From contig JAFADT010000672.1 in NCBI GenBank assembly GCA_023424585.1, positions 1 to 19,193 on the forward strand: DNA of 19,193 bases, written 5' to 3'. Positions 52-14,252 of this stretch are shown piece by piece; the first letter of the stretch is position 1, and every line of letters begins with the position of its first letter. The notes under the pieces are model-generated. The model had not been told where the DNA came from and did not search any database. It saw only the letters and a list, made by a program, of their open reading frames with translations. Both the position numbers and the translations under genes were made by a program. The stretch is from Pseudomonadota bacterium (GTDB lineage: Bacteria; Myxococcota; Myxococcia; Myxococcales; Myxococcaceae).

Positions 52-83
52 GGGCTCTCCGGGAACGGAATTGTTCAAGGTCG

Positions 84-378: not shown

Positions 379-864
379 TCAGAAGGAGGAGTGGGTCCGC
401 GCGTTCCTCGCGCGGATGGCCTCTTCGGTCCTCGGAACGAGGGACTCACCCTGCTCGGTGACGGCCACGACCCGACGGGCGAACCCCAGCGGGTTGGCGC
501 CCGGGCCGTCGCTCGGCGCCGACACCACGACCTGGCCGGTCTCCCAGTGCAGCACCTCGGGGTTCTCCGCCCTCGGGAAGACGAGCGAGTCGGGCCTCAC
601 GACGACAGTGCGCGCCTGGGTCTCCGTGACGACCTGTACCCATGGCTGGGGTTGAAGGTTGTTGTAGTCGGGCTCGAACTGCGGCTCCCATACGAGGCTT
701 TCGAGGTCCTCGTGCGGGCTCTCCACGACGTATTCCCCTGGGGTGTCGTCGTCGGGGTTCGTCGTCGTACATGAGCCGGTCAACAGGAGGCTGACGAGCA
801 TCGACAGCACCAGCGACGGACGGCCACGCATCCAGGGACTCCGCGGGTCACTTCTCTTCAACAT
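379..864 (-). CDS. Truncated lipoprotein fused to the tail of the monooxygenase (chimeric, 161 aa)
   Basis: The product starts MLKRSDPRSPWMRGRPS, continues with a hydrophobic signal segment (residues 18-30) and has a lipobox-like LTGSC with Cys32, then a low-complexity TTTNPDDDTP linker. The mature part (EYVVESPHEDLESLVWEP...) is an acidic domain that I recall from long hypothetical myxobacterial lipoproteins; no function is assigned. After residue ~138 the chain is SLVPRTEEAIRARNARTHSSF, the same C-terminus as the monooxygenase at 1189-2313. The gene has therefore lost its own 3' end to the duplication joint near 447. I chose ATG 864 because GGAGA lies 5 bases upstream; ATG 831 (MRGRPS) is an alternative. 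A sigma-54-type promoter and TGAC/GTCA operators precede it. The intact parent probably starts at 51. Whether the chimera is stable or functional is unknown. Confidence 0.7.
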   Translation of the reverse strand: MLKRSDPRSPWMRGRPSLVLSMLVSLLLTGSCTTTNPDDDTPGEYVVESPHEDLESLVWEPQFEPDYNNLQPQPWVQVVTETQARTVVVRPDSLVFPRAENPEVLHWETGQVVVSAPSDGPGANPLGFARRVVAVTEQGESLVPRTEEAIRARNARTHSSF

Positions 865-896
865 GGGCTCTCCGGGAACGGAATTGTTCAAGGTCG

Positions 897-912
897 AGCA
901 AAATCCGTTCCG
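897..912 (-). promoter_or_regulatory. Sigma-54-type promoter, right lipoprotein copy
   Basis: The minus strand reads CGGAACGGATTTTGCT with GG-N10-GC spacing, identical to 84-99. The expected transcript start is near 886, giving a leader of ~22 bases before ATG 864. It lies 42 bases downstream (on the minus strand) of the TGAC/GTCA operator array. Confidence 0.6.
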
Positions 913-953
913 AGCGCCCCAGCTGCGCCGCCCCCTCCAGAAGAACACGTGAA

Positions 954-992
954 TGCGTCACTGACGCGTCAACAGCAGCCCCTGACGCGCCA
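954..992. promoter_or_regulatory. TGACRYGTCA operator array, right copy
   Basis: TGCGTCA at 954-960, TGACGCGTCA at 962-971 and TGACGCGCCA at 983-992. The GCGTCA/GCGCCA half-sites start at 955, 966 and 987, spaced 11 and 21 bases, so they lie on one face of the helix. A further TGAC is at 994. In the left copy the outer half-site is altered (TGCTTCA), so the two copies may bind with different strength. Confidence 0.62.
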
Positions 993-1188
993 ATGACCCT
1001 TGATACGAGCCGCGACCCGCCGAGACTTCATCGTGGCGCCCGAGGAGATGGCGGCGCGCCTCTCGCTGACCGCTCGCAGGGATTGCGCCGTAGCGGCGCG
1101 CGTCCGAGAAGGTAGGCACCGGCGGGTCTTCGTCTCCCCCATTGGTCGGCGGGAGCACTCCCGCGCCCGTCTTGGGCAGCGCGAGCGC

Positions 1189-2313
1189 TCAGAAGGAGGA
1201 GTGGGTCCGCGCGTTCCTCGCGCGGATGGCCTCTTCGGTCCTCGGAACGAGGGACTCGAGCCCGGTCCTCACGGCCTCCGCCTGGACCTGCTCGATGAAC
1301 GGCCGGAAGCGCTCGTTGTAGGCTCGAAACGCGAGCTCGAAGTCGCAGTCGTGCTCTCGCATCGCATCCGCCAGCGCGGCCGCGCCATCGATGGCCAACG
1401 AGCCCCCCATGCCGGCAGCGGGTGACGCGCAGTACGCCGCATCGCCGACCAACGCGACCCGGCCTCTCGTCCAGGAAGGCATGCGGATCTGGCACAGCTT
1501 GTCGAAGTAGAAGTTCTTCGAGCCCCGCACCTCTTCGAGCAGCTCCGCGGTCCTCCAGCCCGTCCCCGCGAACTGGTCCGCGATGATCCGCCGCTGCGCC
1601 TCCTCGTCGCGACGGTCGTAGGAGAGCTCCTTGTCGGAGGCGAACGCGAAGATGATGTCCGTGTTGTTCTTGTAGGCGTTGAGCATCACGGCCTTGCCCG
1701 GCACGTTGAACATCTGCGCGGTGTCCCGCTCGATGAGCAGCTTGTCCACGATCGTGATCGAGAAGTACTGCTCAAGGAAATACATGTACCGGGCCTCGTC
1801 GCCGAACCAGAGCCTCCGCACGGCGGAGTGAACACCGTCGCAGCCGAACACCAGGTCGAACGTGCGCCGGGCGCCCCTCGCGAACGTGGCTTCGATGCTG
1901 TCTCTCGTCTCGAGCAGCGCGGCAACGCTGTCGTCGAAGATGACTTCGATGGGGTCCTTCACGGCGTCGAACAGCATGTTCAGCAGAACGGTCCGCTCGA
2001 TCTCGAACTCGTCATCCGAGGGAGCCTCGCCTTCCTCCCTCAGCACCATCGAGCGCTCCGTGACGTCCCGCTCGTTCTTCATGTCCCACCGCCGCAGGCT
2101 CAAGCGGTTCGCCCGGATCGGCTCGAAGAGGCCCATGCGCCGGACGATGTCGACGGTGTTGCCTTTGATGTCGACGGCCGTACCGCCAACCCGGAGCCCG
2201 CGCGCGACCTCCACGACGGTGACCTCGTAGCCCAGGCGGCTCATCCAAAAGGCCGTCGAGAGCCCGGCGAAGCTCGCCCCGGAGATGAGGACCTTCTTTC
2301 CATTCGCGCGCAT
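1189..2313 (-). CDS. FAD-dependent monooxygenase (aromatic hydroxylase type, 374 aa)
   Basis: Class A flavoprotein monooxygenase of the PHBH/UbiH/tetracycline-monooxygenase fold, cytosolic, using FAD and NAD(P)H. Visible motifs in order are an N-terminal dinucleotide-binding segment (GASFAG, residues 12-17, with the acidic strand end VTVVE), the DG motif (GCDGVHSAVRR, 158-167), and the GD motif that binds the FAD ribityl chain (GRVALVGDAAYCASPAAGMGG, ~284-304). Length is normal for small single-domain members. ATG 2313 is chosen because GAGGAG lies just upstream (agaggagacgtc-ATG) and the family start (KKVLISGAS) follows at once. It is divergent from a TetR gene with palindromic operators between them, so it is probably the main target of that repressor; an inducing aromatic compound is likely but unidentified. 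Its last ~23 codons were copied into the chimeric lipoprotein at 379-864. Substrate unknown: detoxification of an antibiotic or tailoring of a metabolite are both possible. Confidence 0.9.
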   Translation of the reverse strand: MRANGKKVLISGASFAGLSTAFWMSRLGYEVTVVEVARGLRVGGTAVDIKGNTVDIVRRMGLFEPIRANRLSLRRWDMKNERDVTERSMVLREEGEAPSDDEFEIERTVLLNMLFDAVKDPIEVIFDDSVAALLETRDSIEATFARGARRTFDLVFGCDGVHSAVRRLWFGDEARYMYFLEQYFSITIVDKLLIERDTAQMFNVPGKAVMLNAYKNNTDIIFAFASDKELSYDRRDEEAQRRIIADQFAGTGWRTAELLEEVRGSKNFYFDKLCQIRMPSWTRGRVALVGDAAYCASPAAGMGGSLAIDGAAALADAMREHDCDFELAFRAYNERFRPFIEQVQAEAVRTGLESLVPRTEEAIRARNARTHSSF

Positions 2314-2360
2314 GACGTCTCCTCTAGACGGCCGGATCACGGCAGCCCCGGAGCCGGAAT

Positions 2361-2366
2361 ATTGTA
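2361..2366 (-). promoter_or_regulatory. Probable -10 box of the monooxygenase gene
   Basis: On the minus strand this reads TACAAT, a good sigma-70-type -10, about 48 bases before the ATG at 2313. It overlaps the edge of the operator at 2365-2373, so a bound repressor would block it. No convincing -35 was found at 16-18 bases. Confidence 0.45.
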
Positions 2367-2405
2367 CCCGGTAAAATTTTTCGCAATCGATTCGTTTACC
2401 GGGTA
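2365..2405. promoter_or_regulatory. Double palindromic operator for the TetR regulator
   Basis: TACCCGGTAAA at 2365-2375 and TTTACCGGGTA at 2395-2405 form a perfect 11-base inverted repeat. Each arm is also itself a 9-base palindrome, TACCSGGTA, with centres 32 bases apart (about three helical turns). The pair sits inside the divergent TetR/monooxygenase promoter region and overlaps candidate -10 boxes for both directions. A TetR dimer on each palindrome would repress both genes. A possible forward promoter is TTCGCA (2380)-N17-TATAAA (2403). Confidence 0.75.
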
Positions 2406-2452
2406 TAAAAATCTGTCTCCCGGGTTTGCGGCGCTTCGTTAGAATCCGGCGC

Positions 2453-3091
2453 ATGGGCGAGCGACGCGAGCGCAAGAAGCGCGAGACCCGGCAGCGGATC
2501 TCCGATGTGGCGACGGAGCTTTTCTTCGCGCGGGGCTTCGAGGCGGTGACGCTCGACGAGATCGCGGCCGCCGCGAACGTCTCCAAGATGACGGTCTTCA
2601 ACTACTTCGCGCGCAAGGAGGACCTCATGCTCGATCGCCAGGATGACCTGAAGCTGGTCTTCTTTCGAGAGGCGATCCGCGCGAGGCCCCCAGGGCAGTC
2701 TCCGATCGCCGAGCTCCGCGCGCTCATGGGCAGGATGCGGGAACAGAAGCATCCCTTCGCGCGCTTCGACCGCCACACGGCTGACTTCTGGCGCTTCGTC
2801 GCGGCCAGCCCGCCGCTCGAGGCGCGGCTCCGTGAGCTCGACGACGAAGCGACCGAAGCGCTGGCGATCGAGCTCGCCGGTCCGGGGCCGGATGGCCTCG
2901 CGCGGCTCGCGGCCGGCATGATCGTGCTGACGGTGCGCACGGCGCGCCAGGAAGCCGTCCGCGTCTTCGACAGCGGCAGCTCCGCGAAGAAGGCGAACGC
3001 TGTGTTCTTCACCTTGATCGATCAGGGCTTCGCGGCCGTGCAAGGCATGGCGGAGACCGAGACGCGCGGCGAGAGCGTGCCCGCCCGATAG
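2453..3091 (+). CDS. TetR/AcrR family transcriptional regulator (212 aa)
   Basis: One-component repressor with an N-terminal DNA-binding domain and C-terminal ligand pocket. Residues 11-60 (ETRQRISDVATELFFARGFE...TLDEIAAAANVSKMTVFNYFARKEDL) are a textbook TetR helix-turn-helix; the recognition helix is around VSKMTVFNYF. The C-terminal part is helical and not assignable to a known ligand class. ATG 2453 is used; an in-frame TTG at 2426 would add nine residues but lies against the operator. It is divergent from the FAD monooxygenase, with 139 bases between the start codons that carry two TACCSGGTA palindromes. The regulator therefore probably represses itself and the monooxygenase. Inducer unknown. 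Confidence 0.92.
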   Translation: MGERRERKKRETRQRISDVATELFFARGFEAVTLDEIAAAANVSKMTVFNYFARKEDLMLDRQDDLKLVFFREAIRARPPGQSPIAELRALMGRMREQKHPFARFDRHTADFWRFVAASPPLEARLRELDDEATEALAIELAGPGPDGLARLAAGMIVLTVRTARQEAVRVFDSGSSAKKANAVFFTLIDQGFAAVQGMAETETRGESVPAR

Positions 3092-3106
3092 GTGGGCCTC
3101 CCCCAC
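3091..3106. terminator. Small hairpin at the end of the TetR gene
   Basis: GGTGGG (3091-3096) pairs with CCCACC (3101-3106) around a four-base loop. It overlaps the stop codon and lies between convergent genes. There is no T-tract, so function as an intrinsic terminator is uncertain. Confidence 0.35.
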
Positions 3107-3149
3107 CCCGCGGGTTCCACCCGTTGCAAGCGCAAGGCGCGCCTCCGCG

Positions 3150-4178
3150 CTACAGGAACTCGTCCCCTCCCCCGGCCTCCGGCTCCTGCGCGGAGAGGAG
3201 AACGTCCCCGGGCCGCTGCTCCACGCGGAGGCCCAGGCCCATGGCGGTCAGGTCCTCGACCGCGGCGAGGGCCTCCATGACGGGCTGCACATCGGCGACC
3301 CGGGCAGGCGCGGCGGTGCGCTCGAGGCGCGAGCCCACCCGTTCCAGCAGCGTGTGCGAGGGGAGGTCCTCGATGTATCGGCCGTACAGGTAGGCGGGCG
3401 CGATCAGGTGGGTGGCCTCGGAGGGAGAGACGGTCGCGATGCTCGTGTCGAAGCGCGCCCGCGCCTCCTCCCGCGAAGTGTCCTGACGCCACAGGCCGAG
3501 CAGGGAGCGCAGGAAGTCCCTCAACGGTTGCGACCGGGCCTGCCCCCGCTGGGCCGAGGCGACCTCCAGCGCCCGCTCCGCGCGTGCGGGGTCGGGCTCG
3601 ACGAAGAACAGCGGCAGCACCTCCTCGATGCTAGGCGTGTAGAGGGGCTCGGCGAGTCGCTCCGGCTCCCCCGCGAACGCGCGCAGCGTCTCGGGTTCGA
3701 GCGGCTCCCCCGCGAGCCAGCGACACCACAGCGCCTCGAGCGAGCCCGCGGCGCGCGGTGCGCGGCGCAGCAGATGGGGACGTGCCTGCTCCACGCCTCC
3801 GAACAACAAGACGGTCACCAGGTCCGCGGTGGAAGGCCCCTCGGGGAACTCGAGCGCGTCCGCCCCCGTCCAGCGCGCGTATCGTTTGCGCTTCAGGTCG
3901 CGCTGGACCTCGCGCGCCACCTCGCCCCACGCGGACCACGGCACGCCGAGCGCCGCGTAGTCCCTCCGGAGGCGCTCGTCCGCGGGGGCCGAGACCTCGT
4001 TGGGGCGCTTCTTGAAGTCGGCCCGCACGCGCTTGAGCTCCTTCGCGAGCGCGGGCAGCTCCTCCGCCGGACAGCCGCCGGTCAGGAGCCGGAGGCGGGC
4101 GATGGGAACGCCGTGCAGCTTGAGCAGCCAGGCTTTGAACGCCGACCAGGCGGGCTCGGAGAGGTGTCGGGATTCCAC
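3150..4178 (-). CDS. Hypothetical protein (342 aa)
   Basis: Not recognised. The product is soluble-looking (no signal peptide or membrane helix), rich in Arg, Glu, Leu and Ala and largely helical. It has a charged stretch around residues 45-65 (ELKRVRADFKKRPNEVSAPADERLRRDYAAL) and an acidic, Gly-rich tail (EPEAGGGDEFL). Codon use is strongly GC-biased at third positions on this strand, which supports it over the long antisense frame at 3354-4547. The start is GTG 4178 with GAGGAC about eight bases upstream; the first ATG is further inside. It stands alone, convergent with the TetR gene (58 bases between stops). No partner gene suggests a role. Confidence 0.75.
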   Translation of the reverse strand: MESRHLSEPAWSAFKAWLLKLHGVPIARLRLLTGGCPAEELPALAKELKRVRADFKKRPNEVSAPADERLRRDYAALGVPWSAWGEVAREVQRDLKRKRYARWTGADALEFPEGPSTADLVTVLLFGGVEQARPHLLRRAPRAAGSLEALWCRWLAGEPLEPETLRAFAGEPERLAEPLYTPSIEEVLPLFFVEPDPARAERALEVASAQRGQARSQPLRDFLRSLLGLWRQDTSREEARARFDTSIATVSPSEATHLIAPAYLYGRYIEDLPSHTLLERVGSRLERTAAPARVADVQPVMEALAAVEDLTAMGLGLRVEQRPGDVLLSAQEPEAGGGDEFL

Positions 4179-4543
4179 GGGCTGTCCTCACTCAGGTGGC
4201 AGACCCGCGCCCCCTCGATGGGGCCGTCGGGCCCTGGGGCCTGCTCCGCGATGATAGTCAGCTCGAGCCGTGGAGCCCCAGGCGGTGACGTCCTTCGCGG
4301 GCGGAGACGCCTCCTGAATCCAGCCAATCCGGCCCCCGCCTCGCCCTTGCCCGGCCAGAAACTGGAGAGGCCGCGGCGCGCTCACGGTCGCCGGAAACCG
4401 CCGGCCACGCCTCTTCTCCCCCTGTACACTCGCTGGAACTTTCGGAACTGGCTGGCTGCGTCAACGCGAACGCACAGGGTTCTGGCGCTCCCAAGGCAGC
4501 TCCAGCGCGCCCCCCTGTGCCCAACTTCCTTGGAGCCGCCACC
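4179..4543. other. Intergenic region between divergent genes
   Basis: 365 bases between the hypothetical gene (-) and the S74 lipoprotein gene (+). I see one isolated TGCGTCA half-site at 4457-4463, ~80 bases before the start at 4544, and a weak GG-N10-GC match at 4483-4498 whose -12 element (AGGCA) is poor. The ribosome-binding site for the next gene is GGAG at 4532-4535. No other gene or RNA is recognised. Confidence 0.5.
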
Positions 4544-5837
4544 ATGAAGCGTGTCGCCACCGCGATGTTCTTGATGGCCAGCACCGTGTCGTGCAGCGAC
4601 GAGCCCACCCAGCAGCAGCCCGGGGCTGACGGCCTCAACCCCGTCTTCGCGACCTCGGCGGCGAGCGCGGAGGTGTGTCCGACGGGCGGCACGAAGCTCG
4701 AGGTGGGCCTCGATGCGAACCGCAACGGGAAGCTCGACGCAGCGGAGCTCCAGCAGGACCTCACGAGCATCGTATGCAATGGCGCGGACAGCACGGTCGC
4801 GGGGCCCGCCGGTCCGCAGGGGCCCGCGGGAGGAACCGGGGCGGTGGGCCCGGCCGGGGAGCAGGGCCCCAGCGGCGTCGCGGGGCCCTCGGGACACGGG
4901 CGCCCTCGTCGCGGGCGGGGCCTGGGACGGCGCGACGGCGGGCGCCATTCCCCTGGAGGGGCCCGGCACGCGCCTGATGTGGTACCCGGAGAGGAGCGCG
5001 TTCCGCGCCGGCTCGGTCACGGGCACGCAGTGGGACGAGGCCAGCGTCGGGCACTTCAGCTTCGCCGCGGGCGAGGACGTCACCGCCAGCGGCCCCAACA
5101 GCACGGCCTTCGGGCTGGGCTCGCAGGCGTCGGCCAGCGCCTCGTTCGCGGCCGGTGAGGAGTCCGTCGCCAGCGGCACTGCTTCGGTCGCGCTCGGCTA
5201 CCATGGGACCACCAACTCGCGGCAGGGCGCGTTCGTGTTCGCGGATCGCTCGTCGGTCAACACCTTCAGCGCCGGCGTCAACCACTCGGCCAACTGGCGT
5301 GTCTCGGGCGGCTTCCGCATCTACACGGCCTCCAACCTGTCCTCGGGCATCACCCTCCAGTCCGGGAGCTCGGTCAGCAACTGGGGTCAGGCCAGCGCGG
5401 TCATCAGCACGAGCACCGGCGCCATGCTGACGACCGGCGGCGTCTGGCAGAACGCGTCCGACGTCCACCGCAAGCACCTCTTCCAGGAGGTCTCGTCCGA
5501 GGACGTGCTCAAGCGGGTCCAGGCGCTGCCCATCACCTCGTGGAGCTACCGCGCGGAGGACGCGACCATCCGTCACCTGGGCCCCACGGCGCAGGACTTC
5601 CGCGCCGCGTTCGGCCTCGGCGTGGACGAGGTCTCCATCGGGACGGTGGACGCCGACGGCGTGGCGCTGACCGCCGCCAAGGCCCTGGCCACCCGCACCG
5701 ATGAGCTGCGCGCCCGGGTGAAGGCGGTCGACGCGGAGGACACCACCCTGCGCGAGCAGGTCTCCACCCTGGCCCAGAAGAACGCCGCGCTGGAGGCGCG
5801 CCTGGAGCGCCTCCTGGACGGACGGCGGGGCGAGTAG
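4544..5837 (+). pseudogene. Collagen-like / YadA-head / S74-chaperone surface lipoprotein, frameshifted
   Basis: The gene reads as one protein in two frames. The first frame (from ATG 4544, GGAG eight bases upstream) gives a lipoprotein signal (MKRVATAMFLMASTVSC), a calcium-loop-like segment (GLDANRNGKLDAAEL...SIVCNG, as in DUF7151) and collagen-like Gly-X-Y triplets (GPAGPQGPAG...). Near 4888-4896 the frame is lost. The continuation, one base later, reads DTGALVAGGAWDG...LMWYPERSAFRAG, then YadA-like head repeats (ASGPNSTAFGLGSQASASASFAAG), then a C-terminal intramolecular chaperone domain of peptidase S74. In that domain SDVHRK keeps the Ser and Lys of the self-cleavage pair, and a coiled coil (TDELRARVKAVDAEDTTLREQVSTL) ends the chain at 5837. 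Such proteins form trimers at the cell surface. The break needs one extra or two missing bases; it may be a real mutation, a sequencing error or a phase-variable site. Confidence 0.85.
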
Positions 5838-5838
5838 C

Positions 5839-5852
5839 GAGCCGCGCGGCTC
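5839..5852. terminator. Palindromic hairpin after the S74 gene
   Basis: GAGCCGCGCGGCTC is a perfect 14-base palindrome two bases after the stop codon (5835-5837). It can form a short GC-rich hairpin but has no T-tract. Possible transcription end. Confidence 0.35.
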
Positions 5853-5877
5853 CTAGAACGCGACCGCCCTGCCGCGC

Positions 5878-6027
5878 ATGCACGAGCAGGTGGGGACGCG
5901 GGAGACCGCCCCGTTCGCGGAGCGCATCGCCGTGAAGGGCACCCCGCTGAAGGACCTACGGGCGCGGAGCGCGATGCGCTCATGGCTGGAGCAGGCCGTG
6001 AAACTCGGGGCGGGAGTCCTCGCATAA
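5878..6027 (+). CDS. Small open frame or gene remnant (49 codons)
   Basis: ATG 5878 to TAA 6025-6027 encodes MHEQVGTRETAPFAERIAVKG...LEQAVKLGAGVLA. The composition looks like real coding sequence (GC-rich third positions, amphipathic C-terminal helix). There is no clear ribosome-binding site, and the stop lies inside a strong hairpin. It could be a short hypothetical gene or the 3' remnant of a larger one. I do not recognise it. Confidence 0.25.
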   Translation: MHEQVGTRETAPFAERIAVKGTPLKDLRARSAMRSWLEQAVKLGAGVLA

Positions 6028-6042
6028 GGCCCCTCCCGCCCC
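6007..6042. terminator. Strong inverted repeat, probable terminator of the lipoprotein gene at 6077-6691
   Basis: GGGGCGGGAG (6007-6016) and CTCCCGCCCC (6033-6042) pair perfectly over 10 bases with a 16-base loop. It lies 35 bases past the stop of the minus-strand lipoprotein gene, followed on that strand by GAGTTT. It could also stop plus-strand transcripts. Confidence 0.55.
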
Positions 6043-6076
6043 AGACCTCACGTGGCCAGAGCCGCGAGGCGAGCCC

Positions 6077-6691
6077 TCACGGGAACGCCGCGACGGTCGG
6101 CGGCGTGGTGCTGGTGAAGAAGTCCGGGAAGGTCGCGGTGTAGTGGCTCCCGCTGCCGCTCTCTCCCAGGATGACGCCGGTCTTCGAACCCGAGACGGTG
6201 ACCGTGGTGCCGTCCGCGGCAATCGCCACGTTCTCCGACTGGATGTTGCCCTTCCCCAGGTAGACGCCCAGGCCGACGGTCCGGATGACGGTCAGGGTGG
6301 CCGGGTCCACGTGGCGCACGCTGAGGGTGATGGGCGCGCTGCCGCTGACGCTCCCCTTCGAGGTGTAGCTCGCGGCGATTCCCAGCCCGTTCGCCGCCAC
6401 GGAACGCGTCGGCACATAGATGACGGACGTCCCCAGGGTCACGCTGCCGGTCCCATACACACACGTCGGGATGGGCTGGCGGAAGAGCTTGATGTCATAG
6501 ACAGGCGGCGTCACGTTGGCCTGCGGATAGGCGGAGATGCTGTAGATGCATCCGTCAAGCGACGCGGAGGATACCGCTGACTCCTGCTGCGCCAGCGCGT
6601 CGTCCTGGCCGGTCACCCCATCTCCCCCACCGCAGGCAGGGAAGACCATTGCGACACAAAGACAGACAGCCCGTTTGAAGAATCGCATCAT
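6077..6691 (-). CDS. Small secreted lipoprotein, hypothetical (204 aa)
   Basis: The N-terminus MMRFFKRAVCLCVAMVFPAC is a type II signal peptide with the lipidated Cys at residue 20, followed by GGGDG and a short linker (DDALAQQESAV) of the kind common in myxobacterial lipoproteins. The mature part (residues ~45-204) is rich in Ser, Thr, Val and Gly in alternating patterns (SVTLGTSVIYVPT, APITLSVRHVDPATLTVIRTVGLGVYLG), so it is probably an all-beta domain. It has one pair of cysteines in the mature domain (DGCIYS, PTCVYG). ATG 6691 is chosen, with AAGGAG 8 bases upstream; ATG 6688 is adjacent. Its upstream region holds three phased GCGTCA half-sites (6871-6898), but no sigma-54 promoter pointing this way was found. 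Probable location is the outer membrane; function unknown. Confidence 0.8.
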   Translation of the reverse strand: MMRFFKRAVCLCVAMVFPACGGGDGVTGQDDALAQQESAVSSASLDGCIYSISAYPQANVTPPVYDIKLFRQPIPTCVYGTGSVTLGTSVIYVPTRSVAANGLGIAASYTSKGSVSGSAPITLSVRHVDPATLTVIRTVGLGVYLGKGNIQSENVAIAADGTTVTVSGSKTGVILGESGSGSHYTATFPDFFTSTTPPTVAAFP

Positions 6692-6870
6692 TCAATGACT
6701 CCTTGGCTCGCGGGAAGCGCGCGCAAGGTAGCAGCAATGCGATCCTCCTCGTGGACAATCTGCATGCATCCGCGCACTCATCAATGACACCACAGGGGGC
6801 GATGATGACCCCGGCCCCGAGGAGCACCCACGCGCAGCAAGCTGCTGCGCCGGGCCAAGGCTCGCTCACC

Positions 6871-6898
6871 GCGTCATGAGTGCGTCAAAGCTGCGTCA
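6871..6898. promoter_or_regulatory. Triple GCGTCA half-site array
   Basis: GCGTCA starts at 6871, 6882 and 6893, exactly 11 bases apart and in the same orientation. Spacing matches the half-site phase of the other TGAC/GTCA arrays in this window. It could be a distal or weaker site of the same regulator, serving either the lipoprotein (-) or the ferritin-fold gene (+). Confidence 0.5.
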
Positions 6899-6974
6899 AG
6901 ACGCGCGCGACGCGGCGCCGATGTCCAAGAAGGTGACCGGGGGCCCCAAAGGCTCGCGTCCAGCGGTCCCAGGG

Positions 6975-7011
6975 CCATGACACGTCAGCCCCCGTCATTG
7001 ACGTGTCATGG
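6975..7011. promoter_or_regulatory. Inverted-repeat operator with two TGACRYGTCA palindromes
   Basis: CCATGACACGTCA (6975-6987) and TGACGTGTCATGG (6999-7011) form a perfect 13-base inverted repeat with an 11-base spacer. The inner palindromes TGACACGTCA (6978) and TGACGTGTCA (6999) start 21 bases apart, and another GTCA lies at 6994-6997 between them. It ends 80 bases upstream of the -24 element of the sigma-54 promoter at 7091, as expected for an enhancer-binding-protein site. Confidence 0.68.
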
Positions 7012-7090
7012 CTCTGGCGCTCCCCCAGCGCCGGGGACCGGCATCACCCCAAGTAGCCCATAGACCTGGGAAACAGACTTTCCCGGCTTC

Positions 7091-7106
7091 TGGCACGGAC
7101 GTTGCT
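7091..7106 (+). promoter_or_regulatory. Sigma-54 promoter of the ferritin-fold gene
   Basis: TGGCACGGACGTTGCT matches the sigma-54 consensus TGGCACG-N4-TTGCW at every fixed position, with GG and GC separated by ten bases. The expected start of transcription is near 7117, about 43 bases before GTG 7160. This is the best promoter match in the window. Confidence 0.85.
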
Positions 7107-7159
7107 CTTCGCGAGGGCGCATTCCTCAATGGCAACCGACCTCCACCTTGGAGCGACTT

Positions 7160-8173
7160 GTGCAAACCAACCCCTGGACCGATGCAGCCCTCCTTGATCA
7201 CCTCCAGAAAGCCGTCTACCTGGAGCTGTGGACCATCCCGCTCTACCTGACGGCCGCCTACTCCCTACAGGTCCCCGGCACGGACCCCGCGCACCCGCCC
7301 CAGCAGGTCATCGTGCGTGGCAACAAGAACCCCAATCGCAGCCGGGAGCAGCTCGCCTTCAACAACATCTATTCAATCGCCGTGCAGGAGATGCTGCACC
7401 TCGAGCTGGCCAGCAACCTCTTCAATGCGCTGTTCGCCTCCAAGGGATTGTCCCCGAAGTTCACGGGCGAATGGGCGCCGCGGTACGACAGGTTTCCATC
7501 CTGGATCGCGGGCAACAAGCCCGTGCAGTGCGGGCCCGTGAACCCCGAGCAGATGGCCCTCCTGGCGTCCATCGAGACGCCCGAGCCCAAGAGCGACGGC
7601 GCGCCTGACGGGCCGCGCGAGACCTATGACTCCATCGGTCAGTTCTACAAGTCCATCGAGCAGGGTCTCCAGGAGCGCTGGAGCGCGCTCTACAAACCCG
7701 ACGTGGACCCCCACCGGCAGAAGAACGAGTTCGGCAACTCGGACTACAGGAATGACTACTACACAGGGTTCAGCAGCGTCATCAGCGGCGACAGCGACAC
7801 CGCGCTGAAGCTCGCGAACGGGGTGCTCCAGGCCATCATCGGCCAGGGCGAGGGCAACCGGGGCCCCCTCATCGAAGCGGACCTCCGGCCCGAGGACGCC
7901 AACGACGTCGAGGACCGGTTCAGCCACTTCTCACGGTTCCGGATGGTGCAGGCGATGCTGAAGTTCGGTGGCCCGCTCAAGACCTACCCCACCACCACGA
8001 AGAGCAAGGAGCTCGCGAGCGCGCAGAATCAGCTCACCGACGGCTTCCAGAGCCTCCTGACCGCCCTGGAGAAGGGCTATGCGGGGAACGGCCAGCTCGA
8101 CCTCACCCCCATGTGGACGCTTCCCCAGCAGATCGTGTCCGTCTGGGCCGCGGGCGGCGTGCCGCAGTTCTAG
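7160..8173 (+). CDS. Ferritin-like protein of the iminophenyl-pyruvate dimer synthase (VioB/RebD) fold (337 aa)
   Basis: The N-terminal ~90 residues carry the ferritin-like pattern of this family: LELWTIPLYLTAAYSL (Glu22 as first ligand helix) and IAVQEMLHLELASNLFNAL with the ExxH pair Glu77/His80. Family members related to the VioB/StaD/RebD domain couple indole-pyruvate imines in violacein and rebeccamycin biosynthesis, but many stand-alone members have no known substrate and no tryptophan oxidase gene is seen here. There is no signal peptide, so it is cytosolic. GTG 7160 is preferred because GGAG (7150-7153) lies six bases upstream; TTG 7148 would overlap that site, and ATG 7129 is out of frame. 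It is followed after 48 bases by an unknown small protein, probably co-transcribed. It is driven by the sigma-54 promoter at 7091 and the TGAC/GTCA operators. Role inferred: metal-dependent oxidation or condensation. Confidence 0.82.
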   Translation: MQTNPWTDAALLDHLQKAVYLELWTIPLYLTAAYSLQVPGTDPAHPPQQVIVRGNKNPNRSREQLAFNNIYSIAVQEMLHLELASNLFNALFASKGLSPKFTGEWAPRYDRFPSWIAGNKPVQCGPVNPEQMALLASIETPEPKSDGAPDGPRETYDSIGQFYKSIEQGLQERWSALYKPDVDPHRQKNEFGNSDYRNDYYTGFSSVISGDSDTALKLANGVLQAIIGQGEGNRGPLIEADLRPEDANDVEDRFSHFSRFRMVQAMLKFGGPLKTYPTTTKSKELASAQNQLTDGFQSLLTALEKGYAGNGQLDLTPMWTLPQQIVSVWAAGGVPQF

Positions 8174-8221
8174 GTCCTCCGCAGTGCGTGCAGCCCGCTC
8201 GACATCCCAAGGAGAACGCCC

Positions 8222-8773
8222 ATGAGCAACGAGACCGCGAAGCTACACCCCCAGGAAAGCGTGACGGCGCATTCCAATGAATTGACCTTCACTGGACTCA
8301 CGGACGCGGACTTCCAGCTGCAATCCCATTCAATCACGTCGGGGCAACCCTTCAACGGAGTCAGCCGCCTTGGAGGAGGGACGATCAGCGTCAATGCGGG
8401 CAGGAAGCACAGCAAGCCCGTTGGCGACTGGTTCAACGCGCAGGCCTCCGGTGCGAAGCTCCCGACGCACACGGAGCTCAGCGCTCCCGACGAGCTGAAC
8501 TTCGCGATCCAGGGGACGTTGATCTTGAACGACGGCAACGGCCCCATCTCCTGCCCGAACTTCGTCATCGCCCAGGGGAACTGGGGGTCGGTCAACTACT
8601 GGTGGATCTCGGCCCCCGGCATGATTGAGACCGACAGCGATGTGCAGTACCTGGGGAAGGCGGGCACCTTGCCGTGCACGCAGAATGGCCGCTCGGTGAA
8701 GGTTCACTTCACGACCGAGAGTTCCAACAACTCCAACTCCCATTCCATCATCGTCAGGGTCACGCCCGCCTGA
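8222..8773 (+). CDS. Hypothetical beta-rich protein, probable partner of the ferritin-like gene (183 aa)
   Basis: Not recognised. The sequence starts MSNETAKLHPQESVTAHSNELTFTGL with no signal peptide, is rich in Asn, Ser, Thr and Gly, and alternates polar and hydrophobic residues, as in a beta sandwich or lectin-like fold. It has two cysteines, in ISCPNFVIAQGNWGS and TLPCTQNGRS, and a Trp-rich stretch (NWGSVNYWWISAPG) in the middle. A strong AAGGAG ribosome-binding site (8209-8214) precedes ATG 8222, only 48 bases after the ferritin-like gene on the same strand. It is therefore probably made together with that protein under sigma-54 control and ended by the hairpin at 8793. A role as partner, substrate carrier or secreted effector is open. 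Confidence 0.8.
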   Translation: MSNETAKLHPQESVTAHSNELTFTGLTDADFQLQSHSITSGQPFNGVSRLGGGTISVNAGRKHSKPVGDWFNAQASGAKLPTHTELSAPDELNFAIQGTLILNDGNGPISCPNFVIAQGNWGSVNYWWISAPGMIETDSDVQYLGKAGTLPCTQNGRSVKVHFTTESSNNSNSHSIIVRVTPA

Positions 8774-8792
8774 AGGGGCGGGAGGACGTCGT

Positions 8793-8821
8793 GGCGGTCC
8801 CCTGCGCCAGGGGGGGCCGCC
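8793..8821 (+). terminator. GC-rich hairpin after the ferritin-like operon
   Basis: GGCGG (8793-8797) with TCCCCTG pairs with CAGGGGGGG and CCGCC (8808-8821) around a three-base loop, with a small bulge. It begins 20 bases after the stop at 8773. There is no T-tract, but stability is high. Confidence 0.5.
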
Positions 8822-8963
8822 CCGGCCGGAGCGCCGGGCCAGGCTTGCCCGGCTCCTTCCACGCAGCACCGGGGCCCTTCCAAGGGGAGCGTGCACGAGT
8901 CAGCCACCCGGCCCGTCCGCCCTTGCCGCGCGGCCCGACCGTCGACACCCTCGACAGAGGAAG

Positions 8964-9356
8964 ATGACGACCTCACCGACAACGTGCCCCTTCTGTCAGC
9001 GCATCCAAGGAGGCGAGACCCTGCTCGACCGCGACAGGGTCGTGGCGATTCCAGACGCCTCTCCACTCAACCCCGGCCACACGCTGGTCGTCCCCCGGCG
9101 ACATGAGCCGGACTTCCTTGCGCTCACGCCCGACGAGCTCCGCTGCGCCTTTCAACTCGTCGGCGAGCTGCGCGCCCTCCTGCAAGAGCGATACGCACCG
9201 GATGGATTCAACGTGGGCACCAACATCGGGGCCGCGGCGGGCCAGACCGTGGACCACGCCCACCTCCACATCATCCCTCGATTCAAAGGAGACGTAGAGG
9301 AGCCCCGGGGCGGTCTCCGATGGATCATTCCAGAGCGGGCCCGGTACTGGCCTTGA
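8964..9356 (+). CDS. HIT family nucleotide hydrolase (130 aa)
   Basis: Histidine-triad protein that cleaves nucleoside phosphate or phosphoramidate bonds through a covalent nucleotidyl-His intermediate. The catalytic motif is HAHLH at residues 98-102 followed by IIPR, and the N-terminal CPFC (8-11) is the usual Zn-binding pair. LNPGHTLVVPRRHEPDF (35-51) is the standard HIT core strand, and the C-terminal RGGLRWIIPERARYW is typical of one bacterial subgroup. Length is normal. ATG 8964 follows an AGAGGAAG site closely. It lies 12 bases before the enolase gene and is surely co-transcribed with it. Its place beside fluoride-export genes is notable: HIT enzymes have been reported to hydrolyse nucleoside phosphorofluoridates (from memory), so a role in clearing fluoro-nucleotides is conceivable but unproven. 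Confidence 0.93.
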   Translation: MTTSPTTCPFCQRIQGGETLLDRDRVVAIPDASPLNPGHTLVVPRRHEPDFLALTPDELRCAFQLVGELRALLQERYAPDGFNVGTNIGAAAGQTVDHAHLHIIPRFKGDVEEPRGGLRWIIPERARYWP

Positions 9357-10652
<1,296 letters not shown>

Positions 10653-10682
10653 CACCGGGAGGGCCTGCTGGCGGGCGGCCCC

Positions 10683-11033
10683 CTAGCCACCGCGCTTCTC
10701 ACCTGCCGCGTAGCTGATGACACGCACCTTCTCCAGCGTCACCAGCCCTCCTTGAATCATCTCGTCAAGGATGGGCAACAGGCGCTCGATCTGCGCTGGC
10801 GTGTCCACGACCTCCAGCACCACGGGCAGGTCCTCGGAGAGCCGAAGCAGATGGGAGCTGTGCACCACGCTCGTCGCGCCGAAGCCCGCGACACCTCGGA
10901 AGACCGTGGCTCCCGCGAAGCCCTCGCGGTGCAGTCGCTCCAGGAGCGCATCCTGAAGCGAGAGGTGGTGCCACTTGTCGCTCTCTCCAATGAAGACCCT
11001 CGCCAGGGTCTGCTCGCCTTCAAGTATCCGCAT
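10683..11033 (-). CDS. DUF190 family protein (116 aa)
   Basis: Small PII-like ferredoxin-fold protein of DUF190. Recognised by MRILEGEQTLARVFIGESDKWHHLSLQDALLERLHREGFAGATVFRGVAGFG (residues 1-52) and the following SSHLLRLSEDLPVVLEVVDTPAQIERLLPILDEMI, the usual family pattern. Length is complete. It lies 21 bases downstream of crcB on the same strand and is expected on the same riboswitch-controlled transcript. DUF190 genes often neighbour crcB; a regulatory or accessory role for the channel is presumed, with no activity established. Its stop at 10683 is 30 bases from the convergent enolase stop. Confidence 0.9.
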   Translation of the reverse strand: MRILEGEQTLARVFIGESDKWHHLSLQDALLERLHREGFAGATVFRGVAGFGATSVVHSSHLLRLSEDLPVVLEVVDTPAQIERLLPILDEMIQGGLVTLEKVRVISYAAGEKRGG

Positions 11034-11054
11034 GACTTGATGTCCCCAGGCCGC

Positions 11055-11438
11055 CTAGCTGCCCATCAGCACCCTCGCGACCACGAAGCCCAGCGCGCCC
11101 GCCAGCAGGCAGCCCACCACCGTGCCCCCCACGTCGAGGGCGAAGGCCAGCCAGGCCCGCTCCTGGAGGAGCGCCAGCGACTCGTACGAGAAGGCGGAGT
11201 ACGTCGTGAAACCGCCAATGACGCCCGTCGTCAGGAAGAGGCGGACGGTGGGTGGGATGGCATTGGTCGCCAGCGCGAGCGCCATGATGAGGGCCATCAG
11301 GAACGAGCCCACGACGTTGACCGTGAGTGTGCCGTAGGGAAACGACGGCCCCAGGAGCTTCGGCACCCAGCCGGTGATGAGGTAGCGCGCGCCCGTTCCC
11401 AAGGCGCCCCCCAGGCAGATGAGCAGTAAGCGAACCAT
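11055..11438 (-). CDS. crcB: Fluoride channel CrcB/Fluc (127 aa)
   Basis: Inner-membrane dual-topology fluoride channel that lets F- leave the cytoplasm. Four membrane helices are visible. Signature segments are GGALGTGARY (10-19), YGTLTVNVVGSFLM (35-48, with the conserved pore Asn41) and TTGVIGGFTTYSAFSYE (70-86). In the usual FTTFSTF box the first pore-facing Phe is Tyr80 here, while Phe83 is kept. Length is normal. ATG 11438 has GAGGAG upstream (ttgaggagacaaaggc-ATG). The gene is preceded by a fluoride aptamer (11515-11574) and a strong leader hairpin, is followed by DUF190, and is divergent from CLC-F. Confidence 0.95.
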   Translation of the reverse strand: MVRLLLICLGGALGTGARYLITGWVPKLLGPSFPYGTLTVNVVGSFLMALIMALALATNAIPPTVRLFLTTGVIGGFTTYSAFSYESLALLQERAWLAFALDVGGTVVGCLLAGALGFVVARVLMGS

Positions 11439-11454
11439 GCCTTTGTCTCCTCAA

Positions 11455-11496
11455 CGGAGCAGCCAGGCGGTCGTGCTTCGCGCACCGCCAGCTCCG
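11455..11496 (-). promoter_or_regulatory. Leader hairpin between the crcB aptamer and start codon
   Basis: Two nested stems: CGGAGC (11455-11460) with GCTCCG (11491-11496), and GGCGGT (11466-11471) with ACCGCC (11484-11489). On the transcript this follows the aptamer by ~18 bases and ends ~12 bases before the GAGGAG ribosome-binding site. It is a good candidate expression platform (termination or access to the ribosome site), though no T-tract is present. Confidence 0.5.
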
Positions 11497-11514
11497 CCAG
11501 CACCGCATGCTGTC

Positions 11515-11574
11515 CGTAGGAGTCATTGGCCGTCGGCTGTGGACGGCGGTTTCTGGCGGACTCCACCACCCCTC
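11515..11574 (-). ncRNA. Fluoride riboswitch (crcB RNA motif) controlling crcB-DUF190
   Basis: Reading the minus strand, GGTGG (11570-11566) pairs with CCGCC (11559-11555) around TGGAGT. The second stem is GCCGTC (11547-11542) with GACGGC (11534-11529). After it comes CCAATGACTCCTACGG, whose ACTCC (11523-11519) pairs with GGAGT in the first loop to form the pseudoknot. The conserved AUGA...CUAC 3' end and the A-rich joiner (AGAAACC) fit the fluoride aptamer. It ends ~76 bases before the crcB start. Fluoride binding should raise expression of the exporter. Confidence 0.9.
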
Positions 11575-11724
11575 ATGAGGTCAACGCCTTCCTGAGCATC
11601 CTTGAATCAGACTGCACACGCGGTGCGGCGCGAACCACCGAGGGACCTCCACGCTCCCGAGGGGCCGCACTCACGCCTGACTGGCGAGGGGCCTCGGAAT
11701 CATCGCCGTCTCCCTTCCTCCTGA

Positions 11725-11753
11725 TTGACCGCACCGCCTGGAGCCATTAAAGC
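11725..11753 (+). promoter_or_regulatory. Probable sigma-70-type promoter of the CLC-F transcript
   Basis: TTGACC (11725-11730), 17 bases, then TAAAGC (11748-11753). The expected start of transcription, ~11760, falls just before the fluoride aptamer, as it should for a riboswitch leader. The -10 is not a strong match. Confidence 0.45.
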
Positions 11754-11765
11754 TCCCGGCCACAG

Positions 11766-11825
11766 GGATGGCGGTGGAGTCCGCCGAGACCTGCCACCCT
11801 CGAAGGTGGCCAATGACTCCTACGG
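11766..11825 (+). ncRNA. Fluoride riboswitch (crcB RNA motif) controlling the CLC-F gene
   Basis: GGCGG (11770-11774) pairs with CCGCC (11781-11785) around TGGAGT. GCCACC (11793-11798) pairs with GGTGGC (11805-11810). Then CAATGACTCCTACGG follows, with ACTCC (11816-11820) pairing to GGAGT (11776-11780) as the pseudoknot. It has the same architecture and conserved 3' end as the aptamer on the other strand, but the stem sequences differ (GCCACC versus GCCGTC), which is good covariation support. It precedes the CLC-F start codon by ~136 bases. Confidence 0.9.
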
Positions 11826-11961
11826 CAAGCCGGTATCGGCCGTGGGTGTCGTTTGAGTCCTCATCCCCATGCCCGCGCCGGAACACTTGGAGGCGCGCGC
11901 ACGTGGATTCTTCCCCGACTCTCCGACCCCCACCCTTCCTCGCTGGCCGCGGAGCCGCGCG

Positions 11962-13278
11962 ATGACCCTGGAAAAGGGTGCTCGAAGCATCATGCAGTGG
12001 CTCGTCCTCGGCACGGTGGTGGGCGTCATCTGTGGCGTGGCCTCCGCGGCGTTCCTCTACCTGCTCGAGGAGGCCACGCGGTACCGCTCGAGCCACGAGG
12101 CCCTCGTCTACACCCTGCCCCTGGCGGGCCTCCTCATCGGCGCCGTCTATGCGCGGTGGGGCACCCCCATCCGGGGTGGCAACAACCTCGTCATCGACAC
12201 CGTGCACCAGGGGGACAAGCAGCTTCCCCTCCGGATGGCCCCCATGGTGCTCATCGGCACGGTCCTCACGCATCTCTTTGGAGGCAGCGCCGGCCGCGAA
12301 GGCACCGCGGTGCAGATGGGCGCGAGCCTCGCGGATGCCGTCGCCCATCGCTTCCGCGTCTCGCCGGAGACGCGGCGGGAGCTGCTCGCCGCGGGCGTGG
12401 CCGGGGGCTTCGGCTCCGTGTTCGGGACGCCCATCGCGGGCGCCCTCTTCGGGCTCGAGGTGGTCTGCGTCGGGCGCATCAGCTACGAGGCGTTGGTCCC
12501 TGCCCTCGTGGCCTCGGTGGTGGGCGACCTGGTGACGCGCTCCCTCGGAATCCACCACACCGCGTACCCCCTCCCCGCTCCCCTGGCCCTGACCCCCGAG
12601 TTGCTCGGCAAGTGGCTGGTCTTCGGCGCGGCCGTGGCGGTGGTCGCCGTGGTGTTCGTGGAGCTGGTCCACTTCATCAAGAAGTCGCTGGAGAAGGCCG
12701 TCCCCGCCTTGCCGCTGCGCATGGCCCTGGGGGGCGTCGCGGTCGTCGCACTCTGGAAGCTGGTGGGGATGACCGACTACCTGGGCCTGGGGGTTCCCAC
12801 CATCGAGAGGGCCTTCGTCGATCCGTCCCTCCCCAGCTCGGCATTCGCGTTGAAGCTGCTCTTCACCGCCATCACGCTCGGCGCGGGCTTCCTCGGCGGA
12901 GAGGTCACGCCCCTGTTCTTCGTCGGCGCGGCCCTCGGGAATGTCCTCGGTCAGCAGCTTGGCCTCCCGTTGGGCCTCGCCGCGGGCGTGGGGCTGGCGG
13001 CGACCTTCGGAGCCGCGGCCAACACGCCGCTGGCGCTCTCCATCATGGCCGTGGAGCTGCTGGGGGCGAGCGTCCTGCCTCATGTCGTCATCGTCACCGT
13101 GGTGGCGTACCTCCTCACCGGGCATCGCGGCATCTACCCGGCCCAGCGGATCGCACGCCTCAAGCATGGCGGCCCGCTCCTGGAGCGGCTGGTCTCATTG
13201 CATGAGCTGGAGGCAGAGCCCGTCCTTCAGTCGCCGCCATCCAACAGCGTCAAGACCGGGTCGAAGCAGGCGTCATGA
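11962..13278 (+). CDS. CLC-F type fluoride/proton antiporter (438 aa)
   Basis: Inner-membrane CLC-family exporter that drives F- out of the cell. Fluoride-type signatures are visible: GREGT at residues 111-115 (chloride-type CLCs have GREGP), GGNNL (72-76) in place of the chloride-coordinating GSGIP, GFLGGEVTPLFFVG (309-322) and GHRGIYPAQ near the end. About ten or more hydrophobic helices fill residues 11-385. There are no CBS domains, as usual for this clade. ATG 11962 is preferred (GGAG seven bases upstream, start just before helix one); ATG 11869 would add 31 Pro/Arg-rich residues without a good ribosome site. It is preceded by its own fluoride riboswitch and is divergent from crcB. It may work with CrcB at different fluoride loads or pH. 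Confidence 0.94.
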   Translation: MTLEKGARSIMQWLVLGTVVGVICGVASAAFLYLLEEATRYRSSHEALVYTLPLAGLLIGAVYARWGTPIRGGNNLVIDTVHQGDKQLPLRMAPMVLIGTVLTHLFGGSAGREGTAVQMGASLADAVAHRFRVSPETRRELLAAGVAGGFGSVFGTPIAGALFGLEVVCVGRISYEALVPALVASVVGDLVTRSLGIHHTAYPLPAPLALTPELLGKWLVFGAAVAVVAVVFVELVHFIKKSLEKAVPALPLRMALGGVAVVALWKLVGMTDYLGLGVPTIERAFVDPSLPSSAFALKLLFTAITLGAGFLGGEVTPLFFVGAALGNVLGQQLGLPLGLAAGVGLAATFGAAANTPLALSIMAVELLGASVLPHVVIVTVVAYLLTGHRGIYPAQRIARLKHGGPLLERLVSLHELEAEPVLQSPPSNSVKTGSKQAS

Positions 13279-13508
13279 CGATGAGCGCTCCGCGCGCAGC
13301 GTGTTGGATTGGCGTTGGCCATCCGTAGAGGCAGAGAAATCCAATCACAACAAAGCCAGCCTCCAAGAACGCGAGAATCACCCCCCAATGCTGGCAATGC
13401 CATTTGCTGGACCCACCTTGGCCATGCACTATTCGCTGCGGGTGAAAACAGGCTTTCCGCTTGCGCAATCCGGCGCATCCGCGGAGCCCACCTGAAGGAT
13501 GCACAGCC
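13279..13508. other. Intergenic region of lower GC content
   Basis: 230 bases after the CLC-F gene, visibly richer in A and T than the rest. It holds the weak promoter at 13450 and a GCGTCATGACG palindrome-like site overlapping the CLC-F stop (13271). On the minus strand, 13250-13400 could encode a hydrophobic peptide (WGVILAFLEAGFVVIGFLCLYGW), but no start or ribosome site supports it. Confidence 0.4.
13450..13465 (+). promoter_or_regulatory. Possible sigma-54-type promoter of the Cys-rich lipoprotein
   Basis: AGGCTTTCCGCTTGCG keeps GGC and TTGC with ten bases between GG and GC, but the first T of the -24 is A and the last base is G. It lies 43 bases before ATG 13509. No TGACRYGTCA pair is nearby (only GCGTCATGACG near 13271). 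Weak call. Confidence 0.3.
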
Positions 13509-14252
13509 ATGAAGATGCATTGGAGTGCGCTCTCGCTGCTGCTGGTCACCATTGGCTGCGGGAACGTGACGCAGGACGAAGCGCTGGCCCCCACCGAGTT
13601 GATGTCCCAGGAGGCCGGAATCGCGACGCGCACATGCGTGAACGGTCTGGGGTGCACGACCGCGTGCCAGTGCGCGGCGGGCTACTGTGTGCCGGATGAC
13701 CTCGGCCCCCCGGTGTCGCAGGAGCACTGCAACCAGGCGCCCGTGCGCGAGTGCAGCACCGGAGCGGACTGTAGCTCCGGCTGTAACTGCGTGGGCAACG
13801 TCTGCGTCAACGACGGGTTCAGCCCCCCCGCCAACTGCCTGCTGGCTCCAGCGGACGCTTACGAGAGCGACAACACCCACCTCACCGCCTCGTCCTACCC
13901 CGGCTCGCCCCAGCTCAACCACTCGTTCCACCGCCAGGGCGACATCGACTGGGTCATCGTATTCGTCCCGGCCACCCAGCTGCTGACCGTGGAGACCTAC
14001 AACCTGCGCAATGGCCCGAAGATGCGGATCGACATCTACGCGTACAACTACGCCACCCGCACGGTGGGAGCGCTGCTTGGCAGCACCCAGAGCTATCTCT
14101 GCAGCGGCCCCAACCCGCTGTGCAACGTGTATCGGGCCACGGCCAACGCCCAGGCGAACAACGTCTACGCGGTCAAGGTGACCGACCTGCGCGGCATGCC
14201 CGCGGGGAGCGATTGGACGCCCACTCCGAAGTACGACCTGAAGATGTACTGA
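13509..14252 (+). CDS. Cys-rich lipoprotein with a PPC-like domain (247 aa)
   Basis: The N-terminus MKMHWSALSLLLVTIGC is a lipoprotein signal with Cys17 as the lipid site. Residues ~43-115 hold two similar Cys-rich modules (RTCVNGLGCTTACQCAAGYCV and RECSTGADCSSGCNCVGNVCV), each probably with three disulfides, the sort of spacing seen in small extracellular binding modules. The C-terminal part (DAYESDNTHLTASSYPGSPQLNHSFHRQGDIDWVIVFVP...LTVETYNLRNG) has the pattern of a bacterial pre-peptidase C-terminal (PPC) beta domain. No catalytic domain is present, so a binding or structural role at the surface is most likely. ATG 13509 is followed at once by the signal; the ribosome site (GAAGGA ~10 bases upstream) is fair. 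It is a single gene with a strong terminator at 14295. Confidence 0.85.
   Translation: MKMHWSALSLLLVTIGCGNVTQDEALAPTELMSQEAGIATRTCVNGLGCTTACQCAAGYCVPDDLGPPVSQEHCNQAPVRECSTGADCSSGCNCVGNVCVNDGFSPPANCLLAPADAYESDNTHLTASSYPGSPQLNHSFHRQGDIDWVIVFVPATQLLTVETYNLRNGPKMRIDIYAYNYATRTVGALLGSTQSYLCSGPNPLCNVYRATANAQANNVYAVKVTDLRGMPAGSDWTPTPKYDLKMY

Follow-up and report, generated by a model that had tools for sequence, protein, structure and literature searches.

Paired TGACRYGTCA palindromes as candidate sigma-54 enhancers in myxobacteria and their likely FHA-fold activator

Described activators and the arrays of the window

Myxobacteria hold dozens of sigma-54 activators, or enhancer-binding proteins (EBPs); in Myxococcus sp. 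CA023, for example, there are 42 activator-like matches. A class of EBPs with FHA domains was reportedly described in Myxococcus xanthus by Jelsbak, Givskov and Kaiser in 2005, and no binding site for this class turned up in open-access literature searches. Here, we analyze a 19,193-nucleotide stretch of myxobacterial DNA (contig JAFADT010000672.1, positions 1 to 19,193; hereafter, the window; 68.5% G+C), in which pairs of the 10-bp palindrome TGACRYGTCA stand upstream of sigma-54-type promoters. We propose, with a probability of about 0.8, that these arrays serve sigma-54 promoters as enhancers (upstream activating sequences), read most likely by a subfamily of activators with an FHA fold. 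The candidate resembles the M. xanthus FHA-domain EBPs in its domain architecture, i.e., an FHA-fold N-terminus, an AAA+ sigma-54 activator domain, and a Fis-type helix-turn-helix (HTH). Since the site, the target promoters, and the candidate activator are proposed together, also for an M. xanthus strain, the claim is readily testable.

The half-sites of NorR are GTCA and TGAC, and its N-terminal domain is a GAF domain. The letters of these half-sites are similar to those of the arrays, while the spacing is different and the candidate has an FHA-like fold in place of the GAF domain; NorR, suggested as a reader by its half-sites, was set aside on account of this fold. In the open-access passages searched, sites were found for only two M. 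xanthus sigma-54 activators, NmpR and Nla28. According to these passages, NmpR recognizes GCGCA-N5-TGCGC, with 14–15 nt between sites in five of seven bound promoters; like the candidate, it is an NtrC-like activator with two sites per promoter, but its site sequence is different and it is the response regulator of a two-component system (PMC11841059). Nla28, with the half-site CT(C/G)CG(C/G)AG, is similar in that tandem sites are found upstream of sigma-54 promoters, with natural-product genes among the targets, and different in the site sequence and in that the sites often lie within genes, again as far as the passages go (PMC7910581). A search of the open-access literature with four forms of the palindrome revealed no bacterial regulator with such a site.

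The window contains four pairs of palindromes, each with starts exactly 21 bp apart. Array 3 (6978–7008) comprises palindromes 6978–6987 and 6999–7008 and an additional GTCA at 6994–6997; upstream of it, GCGTCA is repeated three times at 11-bp steps (at 6871, 6882, and 6893, spanning 6871–6898, with GTCA at 6873, 6884, and 6895), possibly providing weak additional half-sites. In array 4 (15661–15691), palindromes 15661–15670 and 15682–15691 are accompanied by GTCA and TGAC half-sites flanking the second palindrome. Array 2 (962–992) consists of palindromes 962–971 and 983–992, with GTCA before and TGAC after; its second palindrome carries one mismatch (TGACGCGCCA). The same is true of array 1 (150–180; palindromes 150–159 and 171–180, the latter also TGACGCGCCA), which is a copy of array 2. 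Each pair has a GG-N10-GC promoter oriented away from it. The promoter at 7091–7106 on the forward strand (TGGCACGGACGTTGCT), 82 bp from array 3, matches the sigma-54 consensus at 12 of 12 positions. Those at 84–99 and 897–912 on the reverse strand (both CGGAACGGATTTTGCT, 10/12) lie 50 bp from array 1 and 49 bp from array 2, respectively, and that at 15582–15597, also on the reverse strand (TGGCCTTGGTGTTGCA, 9/12), lies 63 bp from array 4.

The original prediction, made from the window sequence, had listed the four 21-bp pairs, the GCGTCA triplet as a fifth array, and a promoter downstream of each pair, one of them perfect, and all of these are present. The number of arrays has to be lowered, however. 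The alignment of window positions 1–466 to 814–1276 has 437 identities, 23 mismatches, and 9 gap positions and shows a tandem duplication that takes in the start of a lipoprotein-like gene together with its promoter and array. Arrays 1 and 2 are therefore one duplicated array, and the number of independent arrays is three. Overall, TGACRYGTCA with at most one mismatch occurs 11 times in the window versus 1.78 expected, and none of 200 shuffles reached 11. Promoter matches need more caution: 15 sites with GG and GC scoring at least 9/12 are listed in the window, i.e., 11 besides the four promoters, and thus a score of 9/12 or 10/12 alone is weak evidence of a promoter. The 15582–15597 promoter is backed by orthologs, since relatives have TGGCATTGGTGTTGCA and similar sequences at this place; the duplicated 84–99/897–912 promoter is putative.

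Distribution of the pairs and their link to sigma-54 promoters

Genome-wide tests were run on genomes related to the window's own rather than on the latter. The exact pattern TGACRYGTCA-N11-TGACRYGTCA, scanned over 84,980 species genomes, was found in 98 stretches, compared with about four expected (for a 36-bit pattern in 257 billion bases, with the four bases taken as equally frequent). Judging by record titles, 58 of the 98 belong to myxobacteria, counting three titled Comamonas sp. KCTC 72670 (L028, L043, and L050), a title that looks wrong, with AurF, activator, and arrays all Myxococcus-like. When a looser pattern was used, 4–16 pairs per genome were found in nine myxobacterial genomes; the reversed-pattern control yielded 0 there and in all 146 genomes of a phylum sample. 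Among the 75 pairs listed of 90, spacings of 20–22 bp (n = 50), 11–12 bp (n = 9), 31–32 bp (n = 7), and 40–41 bp (n = 4) were observed, and the remaining five were 14, 19, 23, 34, and 34 bp. The predicted spacing of exactly 21 bp thus holds in the window and is the commonest start-to-start distance in relatives, but it is not the sole one. As the spacings are mostly multiples of the helix turn, paired sites should lie on one DNA face. In a Hormoscilla metagenome-assembled genome (L008, L016, and L020), tandem TGACATGTCA arrays at 21-bp steps occur, and the best sigma-54 promoter pointing away from them scores 13.

Promoters near the arrays were scored by a weighted match to TGGCACG-N4-TTGCW, with a maximum of 18. 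Before de-duplication, and with the Sorangium arrays counted among the others, a promoter scoring at least 15 pointed away from the array at 40 of 57 places and towards it at 0 of 57. After neighbors had been merged, look-alike flanks dropped, and Sorangium, Minicystis, and Sandaracinaceae left out, 38 arrays remained; such promoters pointed away from 26 and towards none, compared with 3.3% of 632 places picked at random within these loci. The predicted tie of the pair to sigma-54 promoters is thus borne out in the relatives. At a score of at least 14, the numbers were 35 away, 7 towards, and 15.7% at random, while inclusion of the three groups left out above gave 30/45 away and 0/45 towards at 15 or more. 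The gaps between array and promoter among the 45 are 41, 47, 59–62, 69–74, 81–83, 92, 102, 113, and 125 bp, with the longest at 141, 168, 200, and 220 bp; at least two candidate activator sites are therefore found about 40–220 bp upstream of a promoter. These distances are periodic: after gene-level de-duplication of a set that took in Sorangium, 23 distances gave a best period of 10.6 bp (R 0.78, a value reached by none of 20,000 jittered sets), and at 10.5 bp R was 0.70 and 0.64 for 26 and 30 flank-de-duplicated cases, respectively. The sites and the promoter thus share a DNA face, and the 10.5-bp phase, repeated over many genomes, offers naturally occurring data on the way in which an activator ring meets the polymerase. 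In M. xanthus AM003 (L078, the same as G121), which has eight pairs and two subfamily members, six pairs have a promoter scoring at least 14.5 that points away, two of the six overlapping and sharing a promoter.

A position 40–220 bp upstream is in itself no proof of activation, and a repressor or another modulator acting at sigma-54 promoters could also bind there. However, arrays of several sites upstream, on the face of the promoter, are typical of enhancers, and AurF orthologs differ widely in the gap between array and promoter (63–200 bp), as expected of an enhancer; we consider a repressor or modulator very improbable.

The same data bear on two further readings of the pair, a chance motif and a dispersed intergenic repeat, the latter a refutation that the original prediction itself had named. 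The duplication behind arrays 1 and 2 is real, and outside myxobacteria many exact matches have no good promoter, as either of these would have it. Yet, outside orthologous loci, the flanks are mostly unrelated (45 of 60 array places survive removal of look-alike flanks), and since flanks differ between sites, the pair is not a copied repeat. The directional association with promoters (26/38 versus 0/38), the conservation of the pair above orthologous genes, and the zero count for the reversed pattern likewise speak, for myxobacteria, against a repeat or chance, to which we attach next to no credence.

Conservation was followed above two of the window's predicted target genes, with orthologs sought in 96 genomes of the family. 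A full-length ferritin-like ortholog is present in seven of them (L166, a partial second match, was left out). All seven have the 21-bp pair, the first member with one mismatch in five, and all seven have a promoter scoring 16.5 at 82–83 bp from the array. In an alignment of five ferritin-like promoters, including that of the window, both palindromes are kept with some changes, the promoter is mostly kept, and a TCA-N-TGAC half-site is invariant. A block in the interval between array and promoter (window 7040–7069, GGCATCACC..CAAG) shows partial conservation across the same five, and a DNA-bending protein may bind there. AurF-like orthologs are present in 41 of the 96 genomes; loci were obtained for 30, and 29 were informative (L183, whose contig holds about 100 bases upstream, was dropped). 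An exact pair within 700 bp was found in nine, each with a promoter of the form TGGC-N2-T-N2-YGTTGCA (scores 16–17, one 14.5; gaps 73–200 bp, versus 63 bp in the window), while 19 had neither pair nor promoter within this distance. Both or neither are therefore present in 28 of 29, the exception being L171, in which the promoter is present and one palindrome stands 805 bp upstream; sites 1.1–1.5 kb away in L167 and a one-mismatch site at −34 in L178 were also seen. Above the AurF-like gene, site and promoter are thus gained and lost jointly among related genomes, and in the relatives the pair behaves like a regulatory code.

An FHA-fold subfamily as the candidate reader

An array adjoins a sigma-54 activator gene in Xanthomonas Leaf148, and in Aliikangiella marina an array lies 2.2 kb from such a gene. 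The two activators share 35% identity across their length, and the Xanthomonas protein shares 37% with one from Hyalangium. A profile of this subfamily separates members (at least 454 bits) from other activators (at most 278). In the 146-genome sample, the subfamily was found in 56 genomes and exact pairs (spacing 19–23) in 43, all within the 56; the other 90 had neither. Outside the Myxococcus-like group, eight genomes have both, and in four of these an array and a member are at most 4 kb apart (chance approximately 3e-8, a rough value, and Xanthomonas and Aliikangiella had prompted the idea); when these two are set aside, the count is two of six (chance approximately 5e-4, from rough counts with the distance chosen afterwards). 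Flanks of 30 member genes contain 20 exact sites in about 90 kb, compared with 7 in a 690-kb background for which all 98 loci were used, including those from outside myxobacteria. Sites near the activator gene are located on its 3′ side, before the next gene, in the parsed Myxococcaceae loci, and on its 5′ side in Minicystis and Xanthomonas.

Members differ in one helix. For the V-Y-V form (R-P/S-S-V-Y-V), 23 of 23 parsed genes have palindromes, one mismatch being allowed, no farther than 56 bp beyond the stop codon, versus 0 of 6 for I-Y-D and I-Y-H paralogs. This count covers the best-scoring Myxococcaceae loci, the 23 being orthologs with shared gene order; L105, L122, L136, and L137 are outside it, and L112 and L113 yielded only a raw tail. 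The center of the palindrome also covaries with the helix: where a V-Y-V member is present (12 genomes), GC, AC/GT, and AT centers number 52, 51, and 9, compared with 3, 43, and 36 where it is absent (12 genomes).

These observations bear on whether the arrays, though sigma-54 enhancers, are read by another activator, such as an I-Y-D-type paralog or an unrelated NtrC-like regulator. There are plenty of candidates, as 45 of the 56 subfamily-bearing genomes hold 2–6 subfamily matches and CA023 has its 42 activator-like matches; moreover, no member accompanies the arrays of a gammaproteobacterium (L060) and of Sorangium So ceGT47. On the other hand, the sites adjoin V-Y-V and not I-Y-D/H genes, CA023 has a single full-length member for its 14 pairs, the palindrome center covaries with the helix, and the published NmpR and Nla28 sites are different. 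We therefore regard another activator as unlikely, and the most likely reader is a subfamily with an FHA fold, an AAA+ domain, and two predicted HTH units, whose Myxococcus copy has the helix PR(P/S)SVYVLIDKS. The original prediction of one EBP controlling a small regulon finds support: 4–16 pairs per genome are consistent with a small regulon and one activator per genome is possible, but the multiple matches in 45 of 56 genomes mean that a single reader is not proven.

Several other observations weigh against the proposal of sigma-54 enhancers read by the FHA-fold subfamily. At the promoters, 12 of the 38 arrays have no promoter scoring at least 15 that points away; in M. xanthus AM003, no convincing promoter points away from pairs L197 and L204, and at L201 a site scoring 16.0 also points towards the array. 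L172 and L178, AurF orthologs without the pair, have an unrelated promoter-like site scoring 14.5, and many AurF orthologs have no array, although several of these genomes hold the activator. As for the reader, only nine candidates per genome were scored in the 146-genome sample, in which 13 genomes have the subfamily without the exact pair, and the genomes in which the activator was sought and seen are those of relatives. The L060 array (3262–3292) has a perfect sigma-54 promoter 61 bp away (the gene behind it looks cytochrome-like by eye). In two Acidobacteria genomes with many members, a single pair lies away from all located members; paired palindromes of another sequence were looked for beside the Acidobacteria paralogs, and nothing convincing was found. 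The core in memberless So ceGT47 is stricter, CGTGACATGTCACG, and another factor may read such Sorangium arrays; three members are found in So0157-2 and three in So ce26. Finally, kinship explains part of the co-occurrence, the neighborhood, and the helix covariation; Minicystis, Xanthomonas, and Aliikangiella are separate lines, with eight sites altogether. Sorangium arrays (So ceGT47 and So0157-2; L006, L009, L031, L074, and L092) mostly have the CGTGACATGTCACG core at 21–23-bp steps; this core, together with the missing member in So ceGT47, was the reason for counting Sorangium separately as well.

The domains of the candidate were assigned from sequence and models. The AAA+ domain matches PF00158 at 8.5e-51 or better in three members scanned, the GA(F/Y)TGA loop pattern is present in the L042, L003, and L066 members, and Foldseek matches include FleQ, PspF, and NtrC1. 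The 537-aa Myxococcus protein was modeled with AlphaFold (mean pLDDT 84.5); in this model, an N-terminal beta domain and the AAA+ domain are followed by three-helix units at 451–485, which aligns to the Pfam Fis-type HTH of relatives, and at 497–531, which by eye resembles a second HTH. When the N-terminal domain (model m44d07187d733; 6 sequences, mean pLDDT 83.1) was compared with the PDB using Foldseek, 14 of the best 15 matches named an FHA domain (best E 2.5e-4); a Pfam scan of three members listed no FHA. Active FHA domains have S-x-x-H. The candidate has S-R-x-P at the aligned place, so its phosphothreonine binding may be lost; the modeled fold suggests control by a phosphorylation signal.

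Mechanistically, dimers of one activator subfamily would bind adjacent palindromes cooperatively and assemble into an AAA+ ring, which would reach the promoter via a short DNA loop and use ATP to open the closed sigma-54 polymerase complex. A bolder version, which we offer tentatively and think doubtful, is that the two-HTH FHA activator reads a GTCA-N-TGAC-RY-GTCA-N-TGAC lattice with a repeat of about 10.5 bp, placing the whole ring on one promoter-facing DNA face, with a residue of the recognition helix setting the palindrome center (Val for GC, Leu for AT). If so, sigma-54 enhancers would have a code whose helical geometry is fixed; kinase signaling would drive it, and secreted and oxidative products of predatory bacteria would be under its control.

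Target genes and other features of the window

The targets in the window would be a ferritin-like gene, an AurF-like gene, and the duplicated lipoprotein-like gene. The ferritin-like gene (PF12902; 7160–8173, forward strand) has its start picked from homologs, the open reading frame (ORF) from TTG beginning at 7148; its product is 78% identical to a Myxococcus sp. NMCA1 protein and 99% identical to a protein on other contigs. The AurF-like di-iron oxygenase gene (14561–15484, reverse strand; start taken from homologs) encodes a protein 95% identical to one listed as MXAN_5416, with an AurF match slightly below the Pfam cut-off. These similarities indicate that the genes of the window are myxobacterial. 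The lipoprotein-like gene (379–864, reverse strand, 161 aa) lies downstream of array 2, and the N-terminus of its product resembles, by eye, a lipoprotein signal (LLTGSC); a Pfam scan of its longer ORF, 379–948, returned no family. Its duplicate, which the putative 84–99 promoter would serve, has an ATG at 51–49 on the reverse strand and runs off the start of the window.

Elsewhere, downstream genes were picked by the best-scoring promoter and codon use and not checked individually. Of 20 such proteins scanned, ten matched a Pfam family, namely trypsin-like protease, LodA-like oxidase, FAD enzyme, terpene synthase (of the geosmin type, recognised by eye), MpaB/Lcp oxygenase, phosphoesterase, mechanosensitive channel, GON, BNR, and DUF2169 proteins, while ten matched none. 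From these few genes, the regulon looks like one of secreted and oxygen-using products.

Apart from the arrays, the window contains a fluoride island (9369–13278) with two fluoride riboswitches, at 11510–11579 (reverse strand) and 11761–11829 (forward strand). They front genes for CrcB (11055–11438) and DUF190 (10683–11033) on the reverse strand and a CLC channel (11869–13278) on the forward strand. The adjoining gene, 9369–10652 on the forward strand, encodes enolase, a known fluoride target. At 15736–19047, a 1,103-aa protein is encoded that has seven carboxypeptidase-regulatory-like stretches (PF13620).
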